This document shows, in pieces, positions 1,542-16,458 of a stretch of 23,070 bases of DNA. Source of the DNA: a virus; the IMG/VR virus record IMGVR_UViG_3300008629_000038, positions 1 to 23,070 of that record, one strand, 5' to 3'. The position numbers and the translations under genes were made by a program. Positions within the stretch are counted from its first letter, which is position 1. Every line of letters starts with the position of its first letter. The notes beneath the pieces were generated by a model that was not told where the DNA came from, did not search any database, and saw nothing but the letters and a program-made list of their open reading frames with translations.

Positions 1542-2017
1542 ATCTTTCTCCAAGTATCTTTTTTCTTTTCCTTCGAAATATCATATAAAACCCAAGGGAT
1601 TCCTTCTCTATAAAGAACTCCTGCCCAAGACGAATCTTCGGGCAGGGGTCTCCTAAGAGTGAAAGGGAAAGGGCAATCTTTAAGCCATAACACGCTTGCT
1701 ATGGTCTTTTTTTCCACTCTCAAAATCTTATGATATTTTAAATCGGCTTTATACTTTTTTTCTTTTGTAAAAAAGAAGCCTAAATTGTCAATGTAATGCT
1801 TTCCTTGATGATTTAATAAAGACGGTATATCATCAATCATATACTTTAAAGGGTATATACTTTTCATCGGGCTTTGTAATCTTCTTATCCCGATTGTCTT
1901 CCCCCTCATATTAGTATCATCTAGGACTTGGTCTTCTATCCATAAAATTCCATCTATTAATTCCACATTGTCTGTATGTACAACGAATAGAGGGAATTCT
2001 AATGCATCATAAATCAT
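1538..2017 (-). CDS. Conserved-looking hypothetical protein, 159 aa
   Basis: Start placed at the ATG at 2017, which overlaps the end of the polymerase gene by 11 nt and follows a GAGG ribosome binding site inside the last polymerase codons. The protein (MIYDALEFPLFVVHTDN...) is soluble, with mixed alpha/beta character and a WIEDQVLDD segment near residues 32-40. A Cys is present in WLKDCPFPF. No motif I can assign to a catalytic family is visible. The position directly behind PolA and the overlap suggest co-translation with the polymerase and perhaps a replication-linked role, which is inference only. Confidence 0.75.
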   Translation of the reverse strand: MIYDALEFPLFVVHTDNVELIDGILWIEDQVLDDTNMRGKTIGIRRLQSPMKSIYPLKYMIDDIPSLLNHQGKHYIDNLGFFFTKEKKYKADLKYHKILRVEKKTIASVLWLKDCPFPFTLRRPLPEDSSWAGVLYREGIPWVLYDISKEKKKDTWRKI

Positions 2018-4277
2018 ACTTATCCTCAAACTTTCCAAATGAATAGTCATCACCTACATCAAAGTCACAACCTACTGGAGAGCCTGGGATACTTAATCCT
2101 CTGTCTTTTTGTACACATTCTCTTACTAAATAACAATAAGCATCTATTGCTGTTTCTGATACTTCTGCTAATATCGAGTCATGTACTAATGCAAATATTC
2201 TTGCTTCCGAACCCCACGGCATACGTTTTAATTCATTGTGGGTATCAATCGCGCCTAATAAATTTATATCTGAAGCTATAGACTGTACTAGGAAATTTAG
2301 TCCTGACCTAACTTCATGACTGGCAACTCCTTTATTGTCTGATTTAACATTTGGTAATCTTCGCTTTCTTCCAAAGTGAGAGTAAATAAATCCATTATCC
2401 ATAATATATCTTGAAGATTTATCAATCCATGCTCTTAATTTAAAGAACTGTCTAAAATAATCATCAATAACTTCCTGTGCTTCATTTACACTAAAATACT
2501 TTCCAGAGTCTTGAGTTACTTGCTGAGATATTTTATTAGCTCCAGCTCCATACATTATTCCAAATGTTACAGCTTTTGCCATCTGTCTTTCAGTTTTATA
2601 ATCATCTGCAACTTTATCCACTTCACAAGGTAGATTGAATACTAACTTAGCAATACTACTATGAAAGTTTCCTCCATCTTGAAAGACTTTTTGTAAATTT
2701 TTATCCTCTGATAGCACAGCAGCTACATATACTTCTGCTGTTGTTAAATCCATAGCAACAATTTTATTCCCTTCTTTAGCCCTAATACAACCTTTTACAA
2801 TAGGATTATCTCTAGGAATTTGTTGCATATTCATTTTCCCACTAGAAGATAATCTTCCAGAAGTGGTACTATGAATATTGAAGCCTGTTCTTAATCTATC
2901 ATCTCCATCAAGCTGTGGTAAAATCTTATCCAAATAAGTATTCTTAATTTTTGACTTTTGTCTAATACTAAGAATATGTTTTGGGATATCATGTACTTCA
3001 GCTAATTTCTTTAATACTTCTGCATCTGTTGAATAAGCTCCTGTAGCAGTTTTCTTACTAGGTTTTAACCCTACATAATCAAATAATAATTCTCTTAGTT
3101 GAACTGTACTATTTGGATTAAATTCTTTTTGTTTTATTCTTTCGAAGTTTTCTACTTCTTCAAAATCATATAATTTATTTACTGCTTGGTCTATATCTTC
3201 TTGCATGAGAACCCCAGCTTTTGCTAGTCTATCTCTATCGAAGGGAACTCCTGCATCTTGAACATCTGTTAAAAATCTACACGCTGGAATTAATATATTT
3301 TCATATACTGACCATAGTTTTGGATTCTTTTTAACTGCTGGGTATAATTTTTCAAATATCAATAGAGTACAAACTGCGTCCATCGCAGCGTAATCTTTCA
3401 TTATTTCATAAGGTACAGAATCCCAAGTAAAATCATCTTTGAGTATTCTATGTGCTTTTCTATACCCATCTATCCAATCATGTAAAGGTTTTTCATAGTC
3501 TCCATAAGGAGTATATTTCATTGCAAGTTGTTTTAATCCGTGTGTTCCAGGCTGTTCTTCAAGACAATAATGAAGAAGCATTGTATCATGAAAGTGTGGA
3601 AATTTAAAATTGAAATGATACTCAAAGAAAGCTAAATCAAACTTTGCATTATGAAATACTACTGCTTTTCTATCAAAAAGCTCTTGCATCATTCTTTCTG
3701 CTCTTTCATCTATTATGTCTGTAAGTATATATGCGCCTTTATTCTTTTCATAGGACATACTGAATCCTATCATATATCCATCTCTAGGGTATAATCCTGT
3801 GGTTTCTGAGTCAAGTCCTATAAATTGATTATCGTGTGTAAGAGCATTGTCCAGAAATATATACAGGTCTTGCACATTATCAATTCCTTTTGCATTATCT
3901 TCAGTTACTTTTACTACTTTTAATTCTCCTTTTATAAACTTAATTATATTATTCTTACTCTCGTCCCATAAAGGCTGAGCTTCGGGTTTAAAAGAAAGCA
4001 TAGCAGGGTTAATAACAGGCAGAAACTTGTCATCTATAACCCTGCCGCTGTACTCTGTAACGGAAGTAGCTTTTGTGTAATTCTTTAGTGCCTCAGAACC
4101 AACCAATATGACCCAGTCATATTCATCTATGTTAACTTCTATATCAACATCTGCTTTTAAAACTTTCTTTTTACTACTGTCTGAGCATAGTGCAAATCTA
4201 TCAAATTCAAAGGCGTTTTCGAACCTGTCTTTGAAGTTTGTTCTGCTTGGTTTGGTTTCTATAAGTGCAATTTTCAT
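2007..4277 (-). CDS. polA: Family A DNA polymerase with 3'-5' exonuclease and N-terminal UDG-like domain
   Basis: 756 aa. Residues 1-118 look like a degenerate uracil-DNA-glycosylase fold (ILVGSEAL at 57-64, then PVINPAMLSF where UDGs have a HPS-type motif), so probably not an active glycosylase. The proofreading exonuclease is intact: D156/E158 (LDSETT), D214 (HNAKFD), Y296 and D300. Polymerase motifs: TSGRLSSSGK (472-481); motif A D510 with E515; motif B R564, K568, F572, Y576, G577; motif C H699 D700 S701. The residue matching E. coli Phe762 is Phe. Motif C is HDS instead of HDE, and motif A reads DLTTAEVY rather than DYSQIELR. A consensus promoter ends six bases before the ATG, so the mRNA is predicted to be leaderless. 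Confidence 0.96.
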   Translation of the reverse strand: MKIALIETKPSRTNFKDRFENAFEFDRFALCSDSSKKKVLKADVDIEVNIDEYDWVILVGSEALKNYTKATSVTEYSGRVIDDKFLPVINPAMLSFKPEAQPLWDESKNNIIKFIKGELKVVKVTEDNAKGIDNVQDLYIFLDNALTHDNQFIGLDSETTGLYPRDGYMIGFSMSYEKNKGAYILTDIIDERAERMMQELFDRKAVVFHNAKFDLAFFEYHFNFKFPHFHDTMLLHYCLEEQPGTHGLKQLAMKYTPYGDYEKPLHDWIDGYRKAHRILKDDFTWDSVPYEIMKDYAAMDAVCTLLIFEKLYPAVKKNPKLWSVYENILIPACRFLTDVQDAGVPFDRDRLAKAGVLMQEDIDQAVNKLYDFEEVENFERIKQKEFNPNSTVQLRELLFDYVGLKPSKKTATGAYSTDAEVLKKLAEVHDIPKHILSIRQKSKIKNTYLDKILPQLDGDDRLRTGFNIHSTTSGRLSSSGKMNMQQIPRDNPIVKGCIRAKEGNKIVAMDLTTAEVYVAAVLSEDKNLQKVFQDGGNFHSSIAKLVFNLPCEVDKVADDYKTERQMAKAVTFGIMYGAGANKISQQVTQDSGKYFSVNEAQEVIDDYFRQFFKLRAWIDKSSRYIMDNGFIYSHFGRKRRLPNVKSDNKGVASHEVRSGLNFLVQSIASDINLLGAIDTHNELKRMPWGSEARIFALVHDSILAEVSETAIDAYCYLVRECVQKDRGLSIPGSPVGCDFDVGDDYSFGKFEDKYDL

Positions 4278-4312: not shown

Positions 4313-5148
4313 GAACTATATAACCGTTCTCTTAAACTGTGTACCTTTGACTCAGCAAGTGCGCCAGGATCGATGTTGGCACCTAAATTAACATTTCTAG
4401 CTATCAATCCTAGTCTATCCGCTAACCCTTTAATATTTTCAGCGGCTTTTTGTCCTGCTTCATCTCCATCAAATACTATATCTACTCCATCAATGTTTTG
4501 CATTTTTAGTATTGCTAATTTATCTTCATCTACATTGTTTGTTCCAAAACAACAAACTGCATTAGATAAACCCTTGTCGAAAAGATTTATCATATCAAAA
4601 ATCCCTTCGACAAGAATTACCTTGCCTTTTATAGGTTTTACACTAGAGGGGAAAAGAGGCATAATGGCTTGGGGAGGATATATTAAGTACTTTGGCGTTT
4701 CCGTCATAGTCATATGTCTACCATTAAATGCTACTACTTTTCCCGTAATGTCACGAACAGGAAAAACAATTCTTCCATTAAAACTCCTGTCGTGGTGTAA
4801 AAAAGCTTCAAAATGTTTATAGGTTTCAGGTTTAATCCCTCTCCAATTTCCAACATAAGGGGTAAATCCTTTTGGAAATTCCAACCCTATACTAGAAGCT
4901 CTTGTTTCTTCGATTCTTTCTTTAAGTTTTTGTCTTTTAATTTCTAAGTAGTTGGCAGCGGCTCCAAAGTGCTTAAATAAGTTTCCTCTAAAGCCACAAG
5001 AAAAACAATGAAAAATCCCAGTTACATTATCAATTCTCATACTAGGGTTAGTATCTTCGTGTTCAGGATTTAAACATTTAACTAATAAGTCTCTGCCAGA
5101 AACTTTAAAGTCTAAATTCTTTTCTTGTAGTAGTTCTTCTACTCTCAT
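4309..5148 (-). CDS. DNA primase (zinc-binding plus Toprim), without helicase domain
   Basis: 279 aa. An N-terminal CHC2-type zinc site is visible (C25, H30, C48, C51). A primase core follows (NGRIVFPVRDITGKVVAFNGR, about 124-144), then a Toprim domain with ILVEG (E181) and VFDGDEAG (D227, D229), the metal-binding acids. It makes RNA primers for the lagging strand, presumably working with the separate DnaB-like helicase at 5918-7279; the T7-style primase-helicase fusion is absent. The length is short compared with bacterial DnaG (about 580 aa). Its ATG overlaps the upstream stop (ATGA), and its own stop lies within the -35 box of the polA promoter. Confidence 0.93.
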   Translation of the reverse strand: MRVEELLQEKNLDFKVSGRDLLVKCLNPEHEDTNPSMRIDNVTGIFHCFSCGFRGNLFKHFGAAANYLEIKRQKLKERIEETRASSIGLEFPKGFTPYVGNWRGIKPETYKHFEAFLHHDRSFNGRIVFPVRDITGKVVAFNGRHMTMTETPKYLIYPPQAIMPLFPSSVKPIKGKVILVEGIFDMINLFDKGLSNAVCCFGTNNVDEDKLAILKMQNIDGVDIVFDGDEAGQKAAENIKGLADRLGLIARNVNLGANIDPGALAESKVHSLRERLYSS

Positions 5149-5702
5149 TTTAGCTTGTTATTATTGTTGCTATTATTATTACTGCTATCACTATTATCCA
5201 TATCGTTTTTTGGCTCATCATGTTTCCATTTTAATTCTTCGCCTAAATCTTCATAGTCAGTCATCTTTCTTCCTTGCCCATCAACTTCATGTCCATAGTA
5301 TAGGCTTTTAAATACTAATTCTTGAAGCTGGAACCAGATGGCTATTGCTTTTTTTCTAAATTCTTCATCTGCCCATAAATAAAATACATTATGGTAATCA
5401 GCTAAGAATCTATGAACTGTTATATTTAAATCAAAATCTGGGTCAATCTCTTCTTTGATATGTGCTACTGCACGAATTCTTTGACTGCCTGCTAAAGGAT
5501 ACCAATTTGCCATAGTTAATATTGGGTTTTTCATACCTTCTTTTAGTAGACTTTCGACTAAAGGTTCATTAAGCGGTACACCATGTATGTTTCTATCCAC
5601 AGTTTCTTGTTTTAAAATAAAATCAGTAGTTACTTTTCTTACTTCAAAAGGTGGAACTGCTACTAAATTAGCAGATTTTACTCCTATTCTATCACTTACC
5701 AC
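5145..5702 (-). CDS. ParB/sulfiredoxin-fold domain protein with Asn-rich tail
   Basis: 185 aa, GTG start, overlapping the previous gene by 11 nt. Residues about 40-82 (VPLNEPLVESLLKEGMKNPI, then PLAGSQRIRAV with GSQR at 72-75) match the ParB N-terminal fold, whose GxxR loop binds nucleotide or phosphate. There is no ParB HTH domain. The middle is helical and aromatic. The last ~20 residues are a low-complexity Ser/Asn run encoded by AAT/AAC repeats, likely a disordered tail. Lying between helicase and primase, it may be a replication accessory protein or NTP-binding regulator; this is inferred from position only. Confidence 0.7.
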   Translation of the reverse strand: MVSDRIGVKSANLVAVPPFEVRKVTTDFILKQETVDRNIHGVPLNEPLVESLLKEGMKNPILTMANWYPLAGSQRIRAVAHIKEEIDPDFDLNITVHRFLADYHNVFYLWADEEFRKKAIAIWFQLQELVFKSLYYGHEVDGQGRKMTDYEDLGEELKWKHDEPKNDMDNSDSSNNNSNNNNKLK

Positions 5703-8091: not shown

Positions 8092-8850
8092 TTATAAAAT
8101 TGTTTTTAGGTTTGTTATTATTTGAACACCCCGTTCTCGGGCTGCTTGTGTTTTTGCGGATTCAATTCCGCTTTCGTTTACTAAGATGGTTACATCTTTT
8201 GTTAAACTATTTTTGACAAGGTAGCCCATTTTTTCTAATACTTCTTTTGCGGCTGCCTTTGTTCTATAGCTTTTTAGTTTTCCTGTAATACAGACAATCC
8301 CTTTTGTTTGTTCTGTTTTTTCTTGAACTGTAGTTTTCCAACTAAAAGGTAATCTATCGTACCCGTCTGTCCATTCTTCGTAAAACCAATCTAGTAAGTT
8401 ATCTGTTGCTTTGGGGCCTAGTCCTGCTTCACTACATACTTGCTCGTTCAACTCTAAAAGCGAGTTAACCTTTTCACATACTTTTTGAGAAGCCGTAGTC
8501 CCAATTAACTTTATCGAGAAAGCTGGTAATAGGTCTACTAAGTCCACTCTCTTACTAGCTTGAATTTCTCTGTGCAGTTTAACTGCCAATTTCTCGGATT
8601 GAAGTGCGTCTATCATCATTTCAAGAGGCAGCTCGTATAAATCAAAGAATGTTGTAATCTTTAACTTCTCTACAGTTCTAGGGCCGAGTCCCTTAATTTT
8701 GAGTGTCTTTGCAAAGTGTTCAATCTTTTTTGATGTCTTTCCAGAACAAGCTGGATTATTACAAAAAAGCTGGTCTTTCTCCCAAATCAATGTCGTACTA
8801 CAAGTAGGACAATGTGTTGGGGGTTTTATCGTTTGCAATTCTTCTCTCAT
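8092..8850 (-). CDS. ligB: NAD+-dependent DNA ligase, C-terminal subunit (zinc finger, HhH, BRCT)
   Basis: 252 aa matching the C-terminal half of LigA: a four-cysteine zinc finger (C14, C17, C30, C35), helix-hairpin-helix segments (KIKGLGPRTVEKLKI, about 51-65, and GLGPKATDNLL), and a BRCT domain from about residue 175 (GIVCITGKLKSYRTKAAAKE...). The adenylation and OB domains are encoded separately at 9327-10280. I moved the start from an in-frame ATG at 8889, which lies inside the promoter spacer, to the ATG at 8850. That gives a leader of about nine bases without a Shine-Dalgarno sequence. The symbol follows the two-gene ligase naming used for phage T5, from memory, and this is not the bacterial LigB family. 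Confidence 0.88.
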   Translation of the reverse strand: MREELQTIKPPTHCPTCSTTLIWEKDQLFCNNPACSGKTSKKIEHFAKTLKIKGLGPRTVEKLKITTFFDLYELPLEMMIDALQSEKLAVKLHREIQASKRVDLVDLLPAFSIKLIGTTASQKVCEKVNSLLELNEQVCSEAGLGPKATDNLLDWFYEEWTDGYDRLPFSWKTTVQEKTEQTKGIVCITGKLKSYRTKAAAKEVLEKMGYLVKNSLTKDVTILVNESGIESAKTQAARERGVQIITNLKTIL

Positions 8851-8865
8851 TTTTTCACTATATAT

Positions 8866-8894
8866 ATTATAACAAATTTGAGATGCCATGTCAA
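8866..8894 (-). promoter_or_regulatory. Sigma70-type promoter for the ligase C-terminal subunit
   Basis: TTGACA (8889-8894), 17 bp, TATAAT (8866-8871) on the minus strand. Transcription should start near 8859, nine bases before the ATG at 8850. The TGA stop codon of the GIY-YIG-like gene is inside the -35 box. Confidence 0.85.
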
Positions 8895-9256
8895 GAATTA
8901 TTTTTCGGGAAGTCCGAGAGAATCAACGAATCAATTTTGAAACACTCTGTATGACCTCCAAACTTGATTTTTGGTTCATATTTGTCATGTGTATAAATTT
9001 CGTGTAAATACTGTTCTTGTATCCACACATGGTAAAGGGTATCAGTCCAAGTTCTTTGAATACGGATATCGTATCCTTTAAAACCTCTGCTACGCTTTAC
9101 AATGTGTCTCCAGTCCTTCCCTGAAGCTATTCCTACTTTAATACACTCTCTTTCAAATGTTTTTCTATTTACTAAGATAATTCCGTACAATACACCCTCT
9201 TTTTCCATTTCTTCGGGGTGATTACGAAAATATGTTTCGTTATATACACCTGCCAC
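8891..9256 (-). CDS. GIY-YIG-like nuclease domain protein
   Basis: 121 aa, GTG start. The order of motifs fits the GIY-YIG fold: LYGIILV (23-29) as the GIY strand, CIKVGIA (38-44) as the YIG strand, basic residues in HIVKRSRG (51-58), a glutamate in WIQEQYLHEI (E81) at the place of the catalytic acid, and GGHTECF (100-106), like the GxTEwF end seen in related phage proteins. The match is partial, since the tyrosines of the motif are incomplete. It sits exactly between the two halves of the split ligase, where a free-standing homing endonuclease would be expected. It has no visible separate DNA-binding domain. Confidence 0.6.
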   Translation of the reverse strand: MAGVYNETYFRNHPEEMEKEGVLYGIILVNRKTFERECIKVGIASGKDWRHIVKRSRGFKGYDIRIQRTWTDTLYHVWIQEQYLHEIYTHDKYEPKIKFGGHTECFKIDSLILSDFPKNNS

Positions 9257-9330
9257 TATGCATAGTATCCCATTAAGAATCCTATGAATAATACTAAAAA
9301 TGTATATGCTATTAATTGATATGCGTTCAA
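9256..9330 (-). CDS. 24-aa membrane peptide between ligase halves
   Basis: A TTG-started ORF (NAYQLIAYTFLVLFIGFLMGYYA) with GGAG six bases upstream. Its TTG overlaps the ligase stop (TTGA), and its TAG overlaps the following GTG by one base. The body is one hydrophobic span. Perfect coupling on both sides supports a real gene despite the size. Confidence 0.55.
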   Translation of the reverse strand: MNAYQLIAYTFLVLFIGFLMGYYA

Positions 9331-10280
9331 TCTGCTCTCCTTACTATTCTTGGGATTATTTCTCCACTTCTTATTACTTCTACTTGACAACCTATCTCTA
9401 GACCTAACCCTTCAATATGTGCCATATTATGTAGAGTTGCTCTACTTACCATAGCATCATCAATCTCTACAGGTTCTAGAATAGCTACTGGAGCGACTAC
9501 TCCTGACTTTCCTACATTCCATAGAACATCTACTAAGGTTGTTATAACTCCTTTTTGCCTTCGTTTAAGAGCATAAGCTCCTTTAGGGTGTCGTGAAGTG
9601 TACCCCATTTTCTCAAAATCTTCATAGTTATCTACTCTGAATACTAACCCATCTTGTGGGTATTCATTCCAATCTGCATCTAATACTGTGCTAAGCCCTA
9701 AGGCATTTTTTAACACAGACATAGCTTCTGAATGACTCCGAGTTAAATGGGGTTCTGCATTGTATGCAATAAAATGAAGGTCTCTAGTTTGGAATTCTTC
9801 TACATCTTTCAGATTAAGTGCTCCAGCAGCATAGTTTCTTGAGTTCTTAATAGTTTTTGGAGCGACTATTTCCCCTGTTATTTGTAATACTTTTGGAAGT
9901 GTATGAAAACTGTGTCTATTCGGTACTAAATGTTTTACTAAATCCGTAACATCTAGTCCCTTCTTTCCATCTCCTCTTGTTAAAACTTTATGTAGGTTTC
10001 CCTCTAAATAAGTTAAAGCCACCGCTGCGCCGTCCAATTTAGGACTAACAATTACGGGTTTTTTATATAATTTAAAGGGGTCTTTTTCGTTTAATTCATT
10101 ATCAAAGATTTTCTGTAATGAATACATACGAAATGTGTGGGGAAATCTGCCATCAGCACTTCCGACTTCTTCAAAGTTATGCAACTCTGCAAGTCTATCA
10201 AATTCTTCATCTGACATAAATGGTTTACCATTATAATATGCCATTGCTGCTCGCCTTAGTAATGCTTTTACATTTTCCAT
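9327..10280 (-). CDS. ligA: NAD+-dependent DNA ligase, N-terminal subunit (adenylation and OB)
   Basis: 317 aa. Domain Ia, which binds the NMN part of NAD+, is recognisable (AYYNGKPFMSDEEFDRL, 14-30). The nucleotidyltransferase motif I is SPKLDG with K81 as the adenylated lysine. Further motifs are TRGDGKKGLDVT (101-112), ITGEIVAP (134-141), NSRNYAAGAL (146-155), DGLVFRVD (210-217) and YALKRR (236-241). The OB fold ends the protein (SRATLHNMAHIEGLGLEIG, 279-297, then RSGEIIPRI). The zinc finger, HhH and BRCT domains needed for nick sealing are in the separate gene at 8092-8850, so the two probably assemble. A promoter ends six bases before the ATG, predicting a leaderless mRNA. Confidence 0.93.
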   Translation of the reverse strand: MENVKALLRRAAMAYYNGKPFMSDEEFDRLAELHNFEEVGSADGRFPHTFRMYSLQKIFDNELNEKDPFKLYKKPVIVSPKLDGAAVALTYLEGNLHKVLTRGDGKKGLDVTDLVKHLVPNRHSFHTLPKVLQITGEIVAPKTIKNSRNYAAGALNLKDVEEFQTRDLHFIAYNAEPHLTRSHSEAMSVLKNALGLSTVLDADWNEYPQDGLVFRVDNYEDFEKMGYTSRHPKGAYALKRRQKGVITTLVDVLWNVGKSGVVAPVAILEPVEIDDAMVSRATLHNMAHIEGLGLEIGCQVEVIRSGEIIPRIVRRAD

Positions 10281-10324: not shown

Positions 10325-10627
10325 TTAACTGAGGTAAATTTCATCTAAAATATCTTTGAAGTGTGTTTCTAGGATACCCTTACTTTCTGCTAGCGATAAA
10401 ATCTCGACTAAGCCTTCGAACAATGCTTTAGAGTTTTGAAAATCTAAAGGCATGGCTACGCCGTCCTTCGTAGGCTTGAAATCTCCGTCAAAATCTAAGT
10501 AGTATTTTCTAAGATGTATGTACTCTACATCTCGAAATTCATTTATAGTTAATCTAACCTGCTCTGTACCATCAGCATTTTCATAAATTAACTTTTCATA
10601 AACTTCTGGGGCTTCGTATATTTTCAT
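10325..10627 (-). CDS. PC4-like single-stranded DNA-binding protein
   Basis: 100 aa. Residues 23-80 follow the PC4/Sub1 pattern: a first strand with VRLTINEFRDVEYIHLRKYY (24-43), a turn DFDGDFKPTKDGVAMPL with the typical PTKxG (52-56), then an amphipathic helix (NSKALFEGLVEILSLAE). PC4 dimers bind ssDNA and unwound DNA; phage T5 encodes a similar protein. The gene lies next to the replication block, so it may act as the phage SSB-like factor or a late transcription cofactor. Its ATG overlaps the upstream stop (ATGA). Confidence 0.8.
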   Translation of the reverse strand: MKIYEAPEVYEKLIYENADGTEQVRLTINEFRDVEYIHLRKYYLDFDGDFKPTKDGVAMPLDFQNSKALFEGLVEILSLAESKGILETHFKDILDEIYLS

Positions 10628-16023: not shown

Positions 16024-16458
16024 CTAACCTATTTGTATATTTTTAGGTTTTTCTGCCTCAGGGGTGTTTACCTCTAAGTTAATTACTAATAGTCCGTCTT
16101 TGAAGCCAGCGTCCTGAACTTCAACCCAATCGCCAAGAGTGAAAACTCTTTTAAATACTTTTCCGCTAAGCCCTTTATAAATATAGCGTTCTTCTTCTGA
16201 GTCCAACTCTTGCTTTTCCTTACCTTCTATGGTAAGCTCGTTTTTGTGTTGTTTAATTTCTATGTCCTGTTTCTTCCAACCTGGCAATGCCAATTCAATT
16301 CGGTAAGCCTCCTCTCCTATAGCAACTAGATTATATCTAGGATAATTAGTAATGGGTAAATCTGTCACCCTATTCGCTAGCTGATTGTGCAAGCGATCAA
16401 AACCGACAAATAATTTGTCGAAATCATTAAAATTTAATGCAGTTTGTAAACCTGTCAT
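16024..16458 (-). CDS. hsp20: Small heat-shock protein, Hsp20/alpha-crystallin family
   Basis: 144 aa. The alpha-crystallin domain spans about 38-135: YRIELALPGWKKQDIEIKQH (52-71), NELTIEGKE (73-81), and the closing strand DGLLVINLEV. The C-terminal NIQIG carries the I-x-I motif that links dimers. It is an ATP-independent holdase. Phage copies are common in marine myo- and podoviruses and may assist virion folding. AGGAG is at good spacing. The gene is the first after a promoter with an unusual 223-nt structured leader, so expression is likely controlled through RNA structure, possibly temperature-sensitive. Confidence 0.93.
   Translation of the reverse strand: MTGLQTALNFNDFDKLFVGFDRLHNQLANRVTDLPITNYPRYNLVAIGEEAYRIELALPGWKKQDIEIKQHKNELTIEGKEKQELDSEEERYIYKGLSGKVFKRVFTLGDWVEVQDAGFKDGLLVINLEVNTPEAEKPKNIQIG

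Follow-up and report, generated by a model that had tools for sequence, protein, structure and literature searches.

The family-A DNA polymerase encoded in the virus record analysed here (hereafter the window, a stand-alone record of 23,070 bases) carries ahead of its catalytic domains a stretch of 118 residues, and the question raised by this locus is what these residues are and what they contribute to the enzyme. The DNA polymerase of phage T5 is a classic enzyme, which is processive and displaces strands unaided, and its N-terminus has been called unique; the enzyme shortened by 30 residues at this end is reported to retain its polymerase activity and to lose some of its exonuclease activity. 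An earlier note on the window had likened residues 1-118 of its polymerase to the second half of the family 4-like uracil-DNA glycosylases (UDGs) and had suggested a non-cleaving domain that could sense uracil or modified bases in the template, with the polymerase of SPO1 as a parallel. The interval it singled out (3924-4277, minus strand) corresponds exactly to residues 1-118 of the open reading frame at 2007..4277, and the motifs it quoted are present there.

The polymerase gene (2007..4277, minus strand) encodes a T5-like phage protein of 756 residues, in which the UDG-fold N-terminal domain (N-domain; 3924..4277, minus strand) is followed by a 3'-5' exonuclease domain at residues 151-314 (3336..3827, minus strand; Pfam PF01612, E 1.9e-23) and a DNA polymerase A domain at residues 377-731 (2085..3149, minus strand; Pfam PF00476, E 1.1e-76). 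The protein shares 45.7% identity over its whole length with the polymerase of a Proteus phage and aligns end to end, through the N-domain and the core, with T5 polymerase; in a tree of polymerase cores, the window sequence and six other T5-like polymerases form one clade with a support of 100/100. T5 polymerase (Demerecviridae) is longer (855 residues), and the window protein, whose C-terminus is encoded at 2007-2100, lacks its C-terminal extension and internal insertions. The extension is also missing from the open reading frames of close relatives whose ends were printed, and its absence is treated here as a lineage difference which does not define the T5-like clade. Removal of the extension abolishes strand displacement by T5 polymerase, according to PMC3303844, and the window lineage, which naturally lacks it, thus constitutes a natural experiment on polymerase processivity.

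Structure prediction for the N-domain was based on an alignment (A2) of the window domain and 50 non-redundant T5-like domains (51 in all), which are 28 to 88% identical to the window domain. The AlphaFold2 model of residues 1-118 reached a pLDDT of 90.6 and a pTM of 0.85. When the model was compared with the PDB using Foldseek, the top 14 rows were all family-4 UDG or UdgX (E 1.4e-3 to 1.3e-2, no row reaching 0.001), followed by TIR domains at E 0.016-0.022. VIA-align gave the family-4 UDG of Thermus (1ui0) as the best match (Z 12.7, rmsd 2.1 Å over 116 residues), with model residues 1-117 equivalent to residues 34-187 of the UDG chain; the family-4 UDGs of Sulfolobus and Thermotoga and UdgX followed at Z 12.6 to 10 (UdgX alone at 10-11), and MUG and TDG came next at Z 8 to 9. 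Matches in a viral structure library were phage polymerases and phage UDGs. We therefore predict with high confidence, on the strength of this model, that residues 1-118 form a complete but trimmed UDG fold minus the N-terminal Fe-S segment, and no sign of an unrelated fold was seen. The description of the region as the second half of a UDG holds for the sequence, in which similarity is clear only over residues ~48-123, and does not hold for the structure, in which the whole fold is represented. A model of the full-length polymerase (pLDDT 87.2, pTM 0.83) was also compared with solved polymerases, and the best 50 matches listed were all PolA chains, covering residues ~121-749 of the model.

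Standard family models gave no direct sequence link, since PF03167, TIGR00758 and TIGR03914 did not match the window N-domain in a Pfam/NCBIfam scan and the first two did not match the N-domain of T5. The link was provided by a profile of 13 N-domains of phage UDG-polymerases (A3), against which A2 scored 80.7 in hhalign (Prob 97.9), as compared with a maximum of 19.0 in 200 column shuffles and a maximum of 18.2 for A3 against 12 unrelated targets (four other polymerase segments and eight other window proteins). The window sequence alone scored 54.7 against A3. A2 scored only 20.6 against 16 cellular family-4 UDGs, which is at the level of noise (maximum of 100 shuffles 19.6), and A3 scored 227 against cellular family-4 UDGs. 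The profile comparison and the predicted fold thus show homology between the N-domain and the family-4 UDG domains that the SPO1-type phage family-A polymerases carry; the kinship of the N-domain with UDGs is transitive, running through the SPO1-type polymerases, since the direct score against the cellular enzymes does not rise above noise. In a search of 50,697 phage records, residues 1-125 of the polymerase found matches in 908 at E<=1, and 902 of these span at least 80% of the query. The polymerase of Vibrio phage D294 found no match in the viral contigs searched. A PDB sequence search with the N-domain returned matches at E 0.013 and 0.48, which were rejected as unrelated chains.

Residues responsible for catalysis and base recognition were examined in a joint alignment of the 51 T5-like domains, the 13 phage UDG-polymerase domains and the 16 cellular sequences. 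We take the acidic residue and the His-Pro motif of family-4 UDGs to be catalytic, the Phe to stack on uracil and the Asn to read the base. In the window domain E7-T8-K9-P10 aligns with the G-E-G-P of the UDGs, such that T8 (4254..4256, minus strand) occupies the catalytic acidic position of the GE(x)PG motif, where none of the 51 T5-like domains has an acidic residue; the catalytic N-terminal motif is missing, as had been noted earlier. N90-P91 (4005..4010, minus strand), within I89-N90-P91, occupies the position of the His-Pro motif, and the reported replacement of the key His by Asn extends across the family, with Asn in 45 domains, Ser in six and His in none, the next Pro being kept in all 51. 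The first, second and fourth Fe-S cysteines are missing from all the T5-like domains; 43 of the 51 have a Cys near the third position, without a partner. The segment with the uracil-stacking Phe is deleted in 51/51. At the Asn column, where the alignment is uncertain, the window domain has Arg, and the six commonest residues (R, Q, V, T, S or K) account for 50 of the 51 domains. The T5-like N-domain thus lacks the Fe-S ligands, the catalytic acid, the His and the uracil pocket, and it differs in these respects from the Thermus enzyme 1ui0 and UdgX, with which it shares its predicted fold. Structural Gly and Pro residues are kept in 51/51 at four of the columns read, and nine positions are invariant across the 51 domains. 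The domain has shrunk from ~175 residues to ~118 in the T5-like form. As judged from these residues, the domain is probably non-cleaving, as the earlier note had it.

We consider it probable that the N-domain is a catalytically dead UDG module serving as a fixed, non-catalytic part of a self-sufficient replicase. T5 polymerase is named, in PMC12230644, as an exception that unwinds long stretches without a helicase. The N-domain may help to hold the template and primer, or a replisome partner, and could thereby support processive synthesis as well as the exonuclease, in a manner akin to D4 of vaccinia, a UDG that forms part of a processivity factor. According to PMC5682278, D4 is a UDG and the DNA-holding subunit of the A20/D4 processivity factor. 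Its likeness to the window domain is one of role only, a UDG serving a replicative polymerase, whereas D4 is a separate protein, works with another polymerase family and is an active uracil-DNA glycosylase. Holding of DNA and docking of a partner are both candidate roles for the N-domain. Its net charge (-1 in the window; median -2 over 51 domains, about neutral to acidic) gives no hint of a generic DNA clamp.

This near-neutral charge is also consistent with the N-domain being mainly a docking interface, either for another T5-like replisome protein, such as primase, helicase, SSB or D5, or for the polymerase's own exonuclease domain, which we regard as rather unlikely to be its principal role. 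In the window, as in T5-like phages, the genes for a primase and a DnaB-like helicase adjoin the polymerase gene. K41 and K97/E99 are among the new invariant positions of the T5-like domains, absent from UDGs; the second lies in K97-P98-E99 (3981..3989, minus strand), which is invariant among the T5-like domains and whose Pro is also present in UDGs (RNPS). Such residues are in keeping with a protein interface, but they could equally be internal.

The proposal of the earlier note that the domain senses uracil or modified bases fares less well. On this view the dead domain would still bind a template base, be it uracil or a 5-modified pyrimidine, and slow or direct the polymerase, a behaviour comparable to the read-ahead of the archaeal family-B polymerases; the UDG fold speaks for it. 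We consider it improbable, as the stacking segment is deleted from 51/51 T5-like domains, all of which have other residues in place of the catalytic Glu and the His, and the base-reading Asn is not found in the window domain; with three of the four cysteines also gone, a uracil sensor is unlikely and glycosylase activity would be less likely still. Gene context points the same way for the T5-like phages. Among nine T5-like records, dUTPase (PF00692) and TS were each found in four, and both occur in 4/4 of those on the T5 side, which thus have an ordinary TS and dUTPase; Thy1 and dCMP deaminase were found in none of the nine, nor was dUTPase_2, for which the positive control was weak. TS and dUTPase were not found in 5/5 contigs of the window clade, all of them partial, so that this absence proves little; no thymidylate-synthase-family or deaminase gene was found among the window open reading frames scanned with Pfam, and no separate UDG gene in the seven records searched.

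The sensing of modified bases finds better ground among the SPO1-type polymerases, in which TS-family or dCMP/cytidine-deaminase genes adjoin the fused UDG domain in 8/11 annotated loci (the loci without such neighbours being those of the Desulfofustis phage, LP-066 and RcKickapoo, with the unannotated SBSphiC left out of the count). A PDB entry, 9qhs, bears the title 'phiLo family-A DNA polymerase with modified template'; this protein of 1142 residues has an N-terminus which matches UDG domains weakly (E 0.0041 and 0.025), and it aligns with the N-domain model at Z 9.1, the aligned range being spread across the chain such that the correspondence is not clean. Modified-thymine sensing is weakly placed for the window protein and has more to be said for it among the SPO1-type relatives.

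The parallel drawn with SPO1 is itself borne out, since the N-terminus of SPO1 polymerase matches PF03167 at 4e-23 and TIGR00758 at 2.7e-31. The SPO1-type polymerases, such as SPO1 gp31 and those of Lysinibacillus phage LysYB1, Listeria phage LP-066, Pseudomonas phage Lebethron and Serratia phage Serbin, have the same order of UDG fold, exonuclease and PolA as the window protein, and the LysYB1 polymerase matches it across residues 44-746. Their UDG domains are larger than the T5-like ones and mostly recognised by PF03167, which exceeded the cut-off in eight of the 16 polymerases tested, T5-like ones included: SPO1, LysYB1 (3e-27), Lebethron (5e-25), Serbin (1e-20), the Desulfofustis phage (1e-10), Huwbert (4e-9), KimJongPhill (2e-7) and LP-066 (2.5e-6). 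The Rhodobacter phage RcKickapoo fell below the cut-off (0.0046), and the scan found no PF03167 match in ctuI7215, Rhizobium phage I1_6, T5, Bennett, D294, PL1 and the window. Within A3, all four cysteines are present in 5/13 domains and the His in 8/13, the catalytic position is acidic in 11/13, and the Phe is kept in one domain and the Asn in none. The SPO1-type domains (L081, L084, L170, L172, L239, L240 and others of A3) may bind some other base in place of uracil. The T5-like polymerases, the SPO1-like polymerases and a group from Pseudomonas, Serratia and actinophages form separate clades in the polymerase tree, which was built to look for a single origin of the fusion and in which the backbone is without resolution and several branches are long. 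The polymerase of RcKickapoo (L330, 421-4164), besides its faint N-terminal UDG domain, has a polymerase domain interrupted by an intein that includes an HNH domain. Another sequence, L241 (MT836347.1, 'Bacteriophage sp.'), is probably bacterial DNA, the stretch with its UDG gene being 100% identical at the protein level to an Oscillibacter contig.

A domain that has lost every catalytic residue and shrunk by so much might also be a functionless relic, retained through its fusion to an essential enzyme. This was assessed with 30 polymerase genes, restricted to the 172 pairs, out of 435, in which identity was 72% or higher. The median pN was 0.145 for the N-domain, 0.144 for the exonuclease domain and 0.142 for the polymerase domain, the corresponding median pS values being 0.708, 0.646 and 0.651; the pN/pS of 0.206, as against 0.218 and 0.214, is a guide only, with synonymous sites near saturation in most of the pairs. 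The N-domain is thus under purifying selection equal to that on the exonuclease and polymerase domains, and its invariant positions persist across T5-like phages at ~30% identity. A domain as constrained as the catalytic ones is not a decaying relic, and we hold this explanation to be very unlikely. Least credible of all is a chance resemblance between a Rossmann-like alpha/beta sandwich and the UDGs, which could call on the silence of the standard UDG models, the shuffle-level score against the cellular-UDG profile and the TIR domains next in the Foldseek rows, but which is countered by the profile score against A3 far above its controls, by the 14 leading rows being uniformly family-4 UDG or UdgX and by a Z of 12.7 over the whole domain.

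The fusion of a UDG domain to PolA is already known in kind, as is evident from 9qhs and from the PDB, where bacterial family-4 UDGs are named 'Phage SPO1 DNA polymerase-related protein'. An NCBI CDD family groups the Thermus UDG with 'SPO1dp'. No description of the disarmed T5-like form was found in the literature searched, which did not extend to subscription papers, and an earlier description is possible; term look-ups in PMC7886860, PMC11348598, PMC9324360, PMC6302109, PMC7824862, PMC12386605, PMC9023294, PMC8775771 and PMC10684548 found no T5-like polymerase described as carrying a UDG domain. Its identification as a disarmed UDG gives a testable idea of the nature and the origin of the N-terminus of T5 polymerase. 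Extending the preferred reading, we suggest tentatively, and as a possibility we would not yet favour, that the N-domain of the T5-like polymerases, T5 included, is a repurposed dead UDG which acts as the built-in DNA-holding module of a single-chain replicase and is an independent parallel to poxvirus D4. If this is true, the phage UDG-polymerases would form a series with a near-intact UDG (LysYB1) at one end, SPO1 in between and the T5 form, fully disarmed, at the other, and would provide a phage case of a repair enzyme turned into a part of a replicase, with living intermediates and a parallel in the poxviruses.

Several other genes of the window were recorded in the course of the analysis. 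An open reading frame of 185 residues at 5145-5702, with the primase and the helicase on either side, has no Pfam match and only marginal PHROG matches. An NAD-dependent DNA ligase (8092-10280) is divided between two open reading frames, of which 9327-10280 carries the adenylation and OB domains and 8092-8889 the zinc-finger and BRCT domains, and an endonuclease-like open reading frame (8891-9256; phrog_681) lies between them. Also present are a PC4-like protein (10325-10627), a 2OG-Fe(II) oxygenase resembling the PKHD-type hydroxylases (618-1133) and a small heat-shock protein of the HSP20 type (16024-16458).
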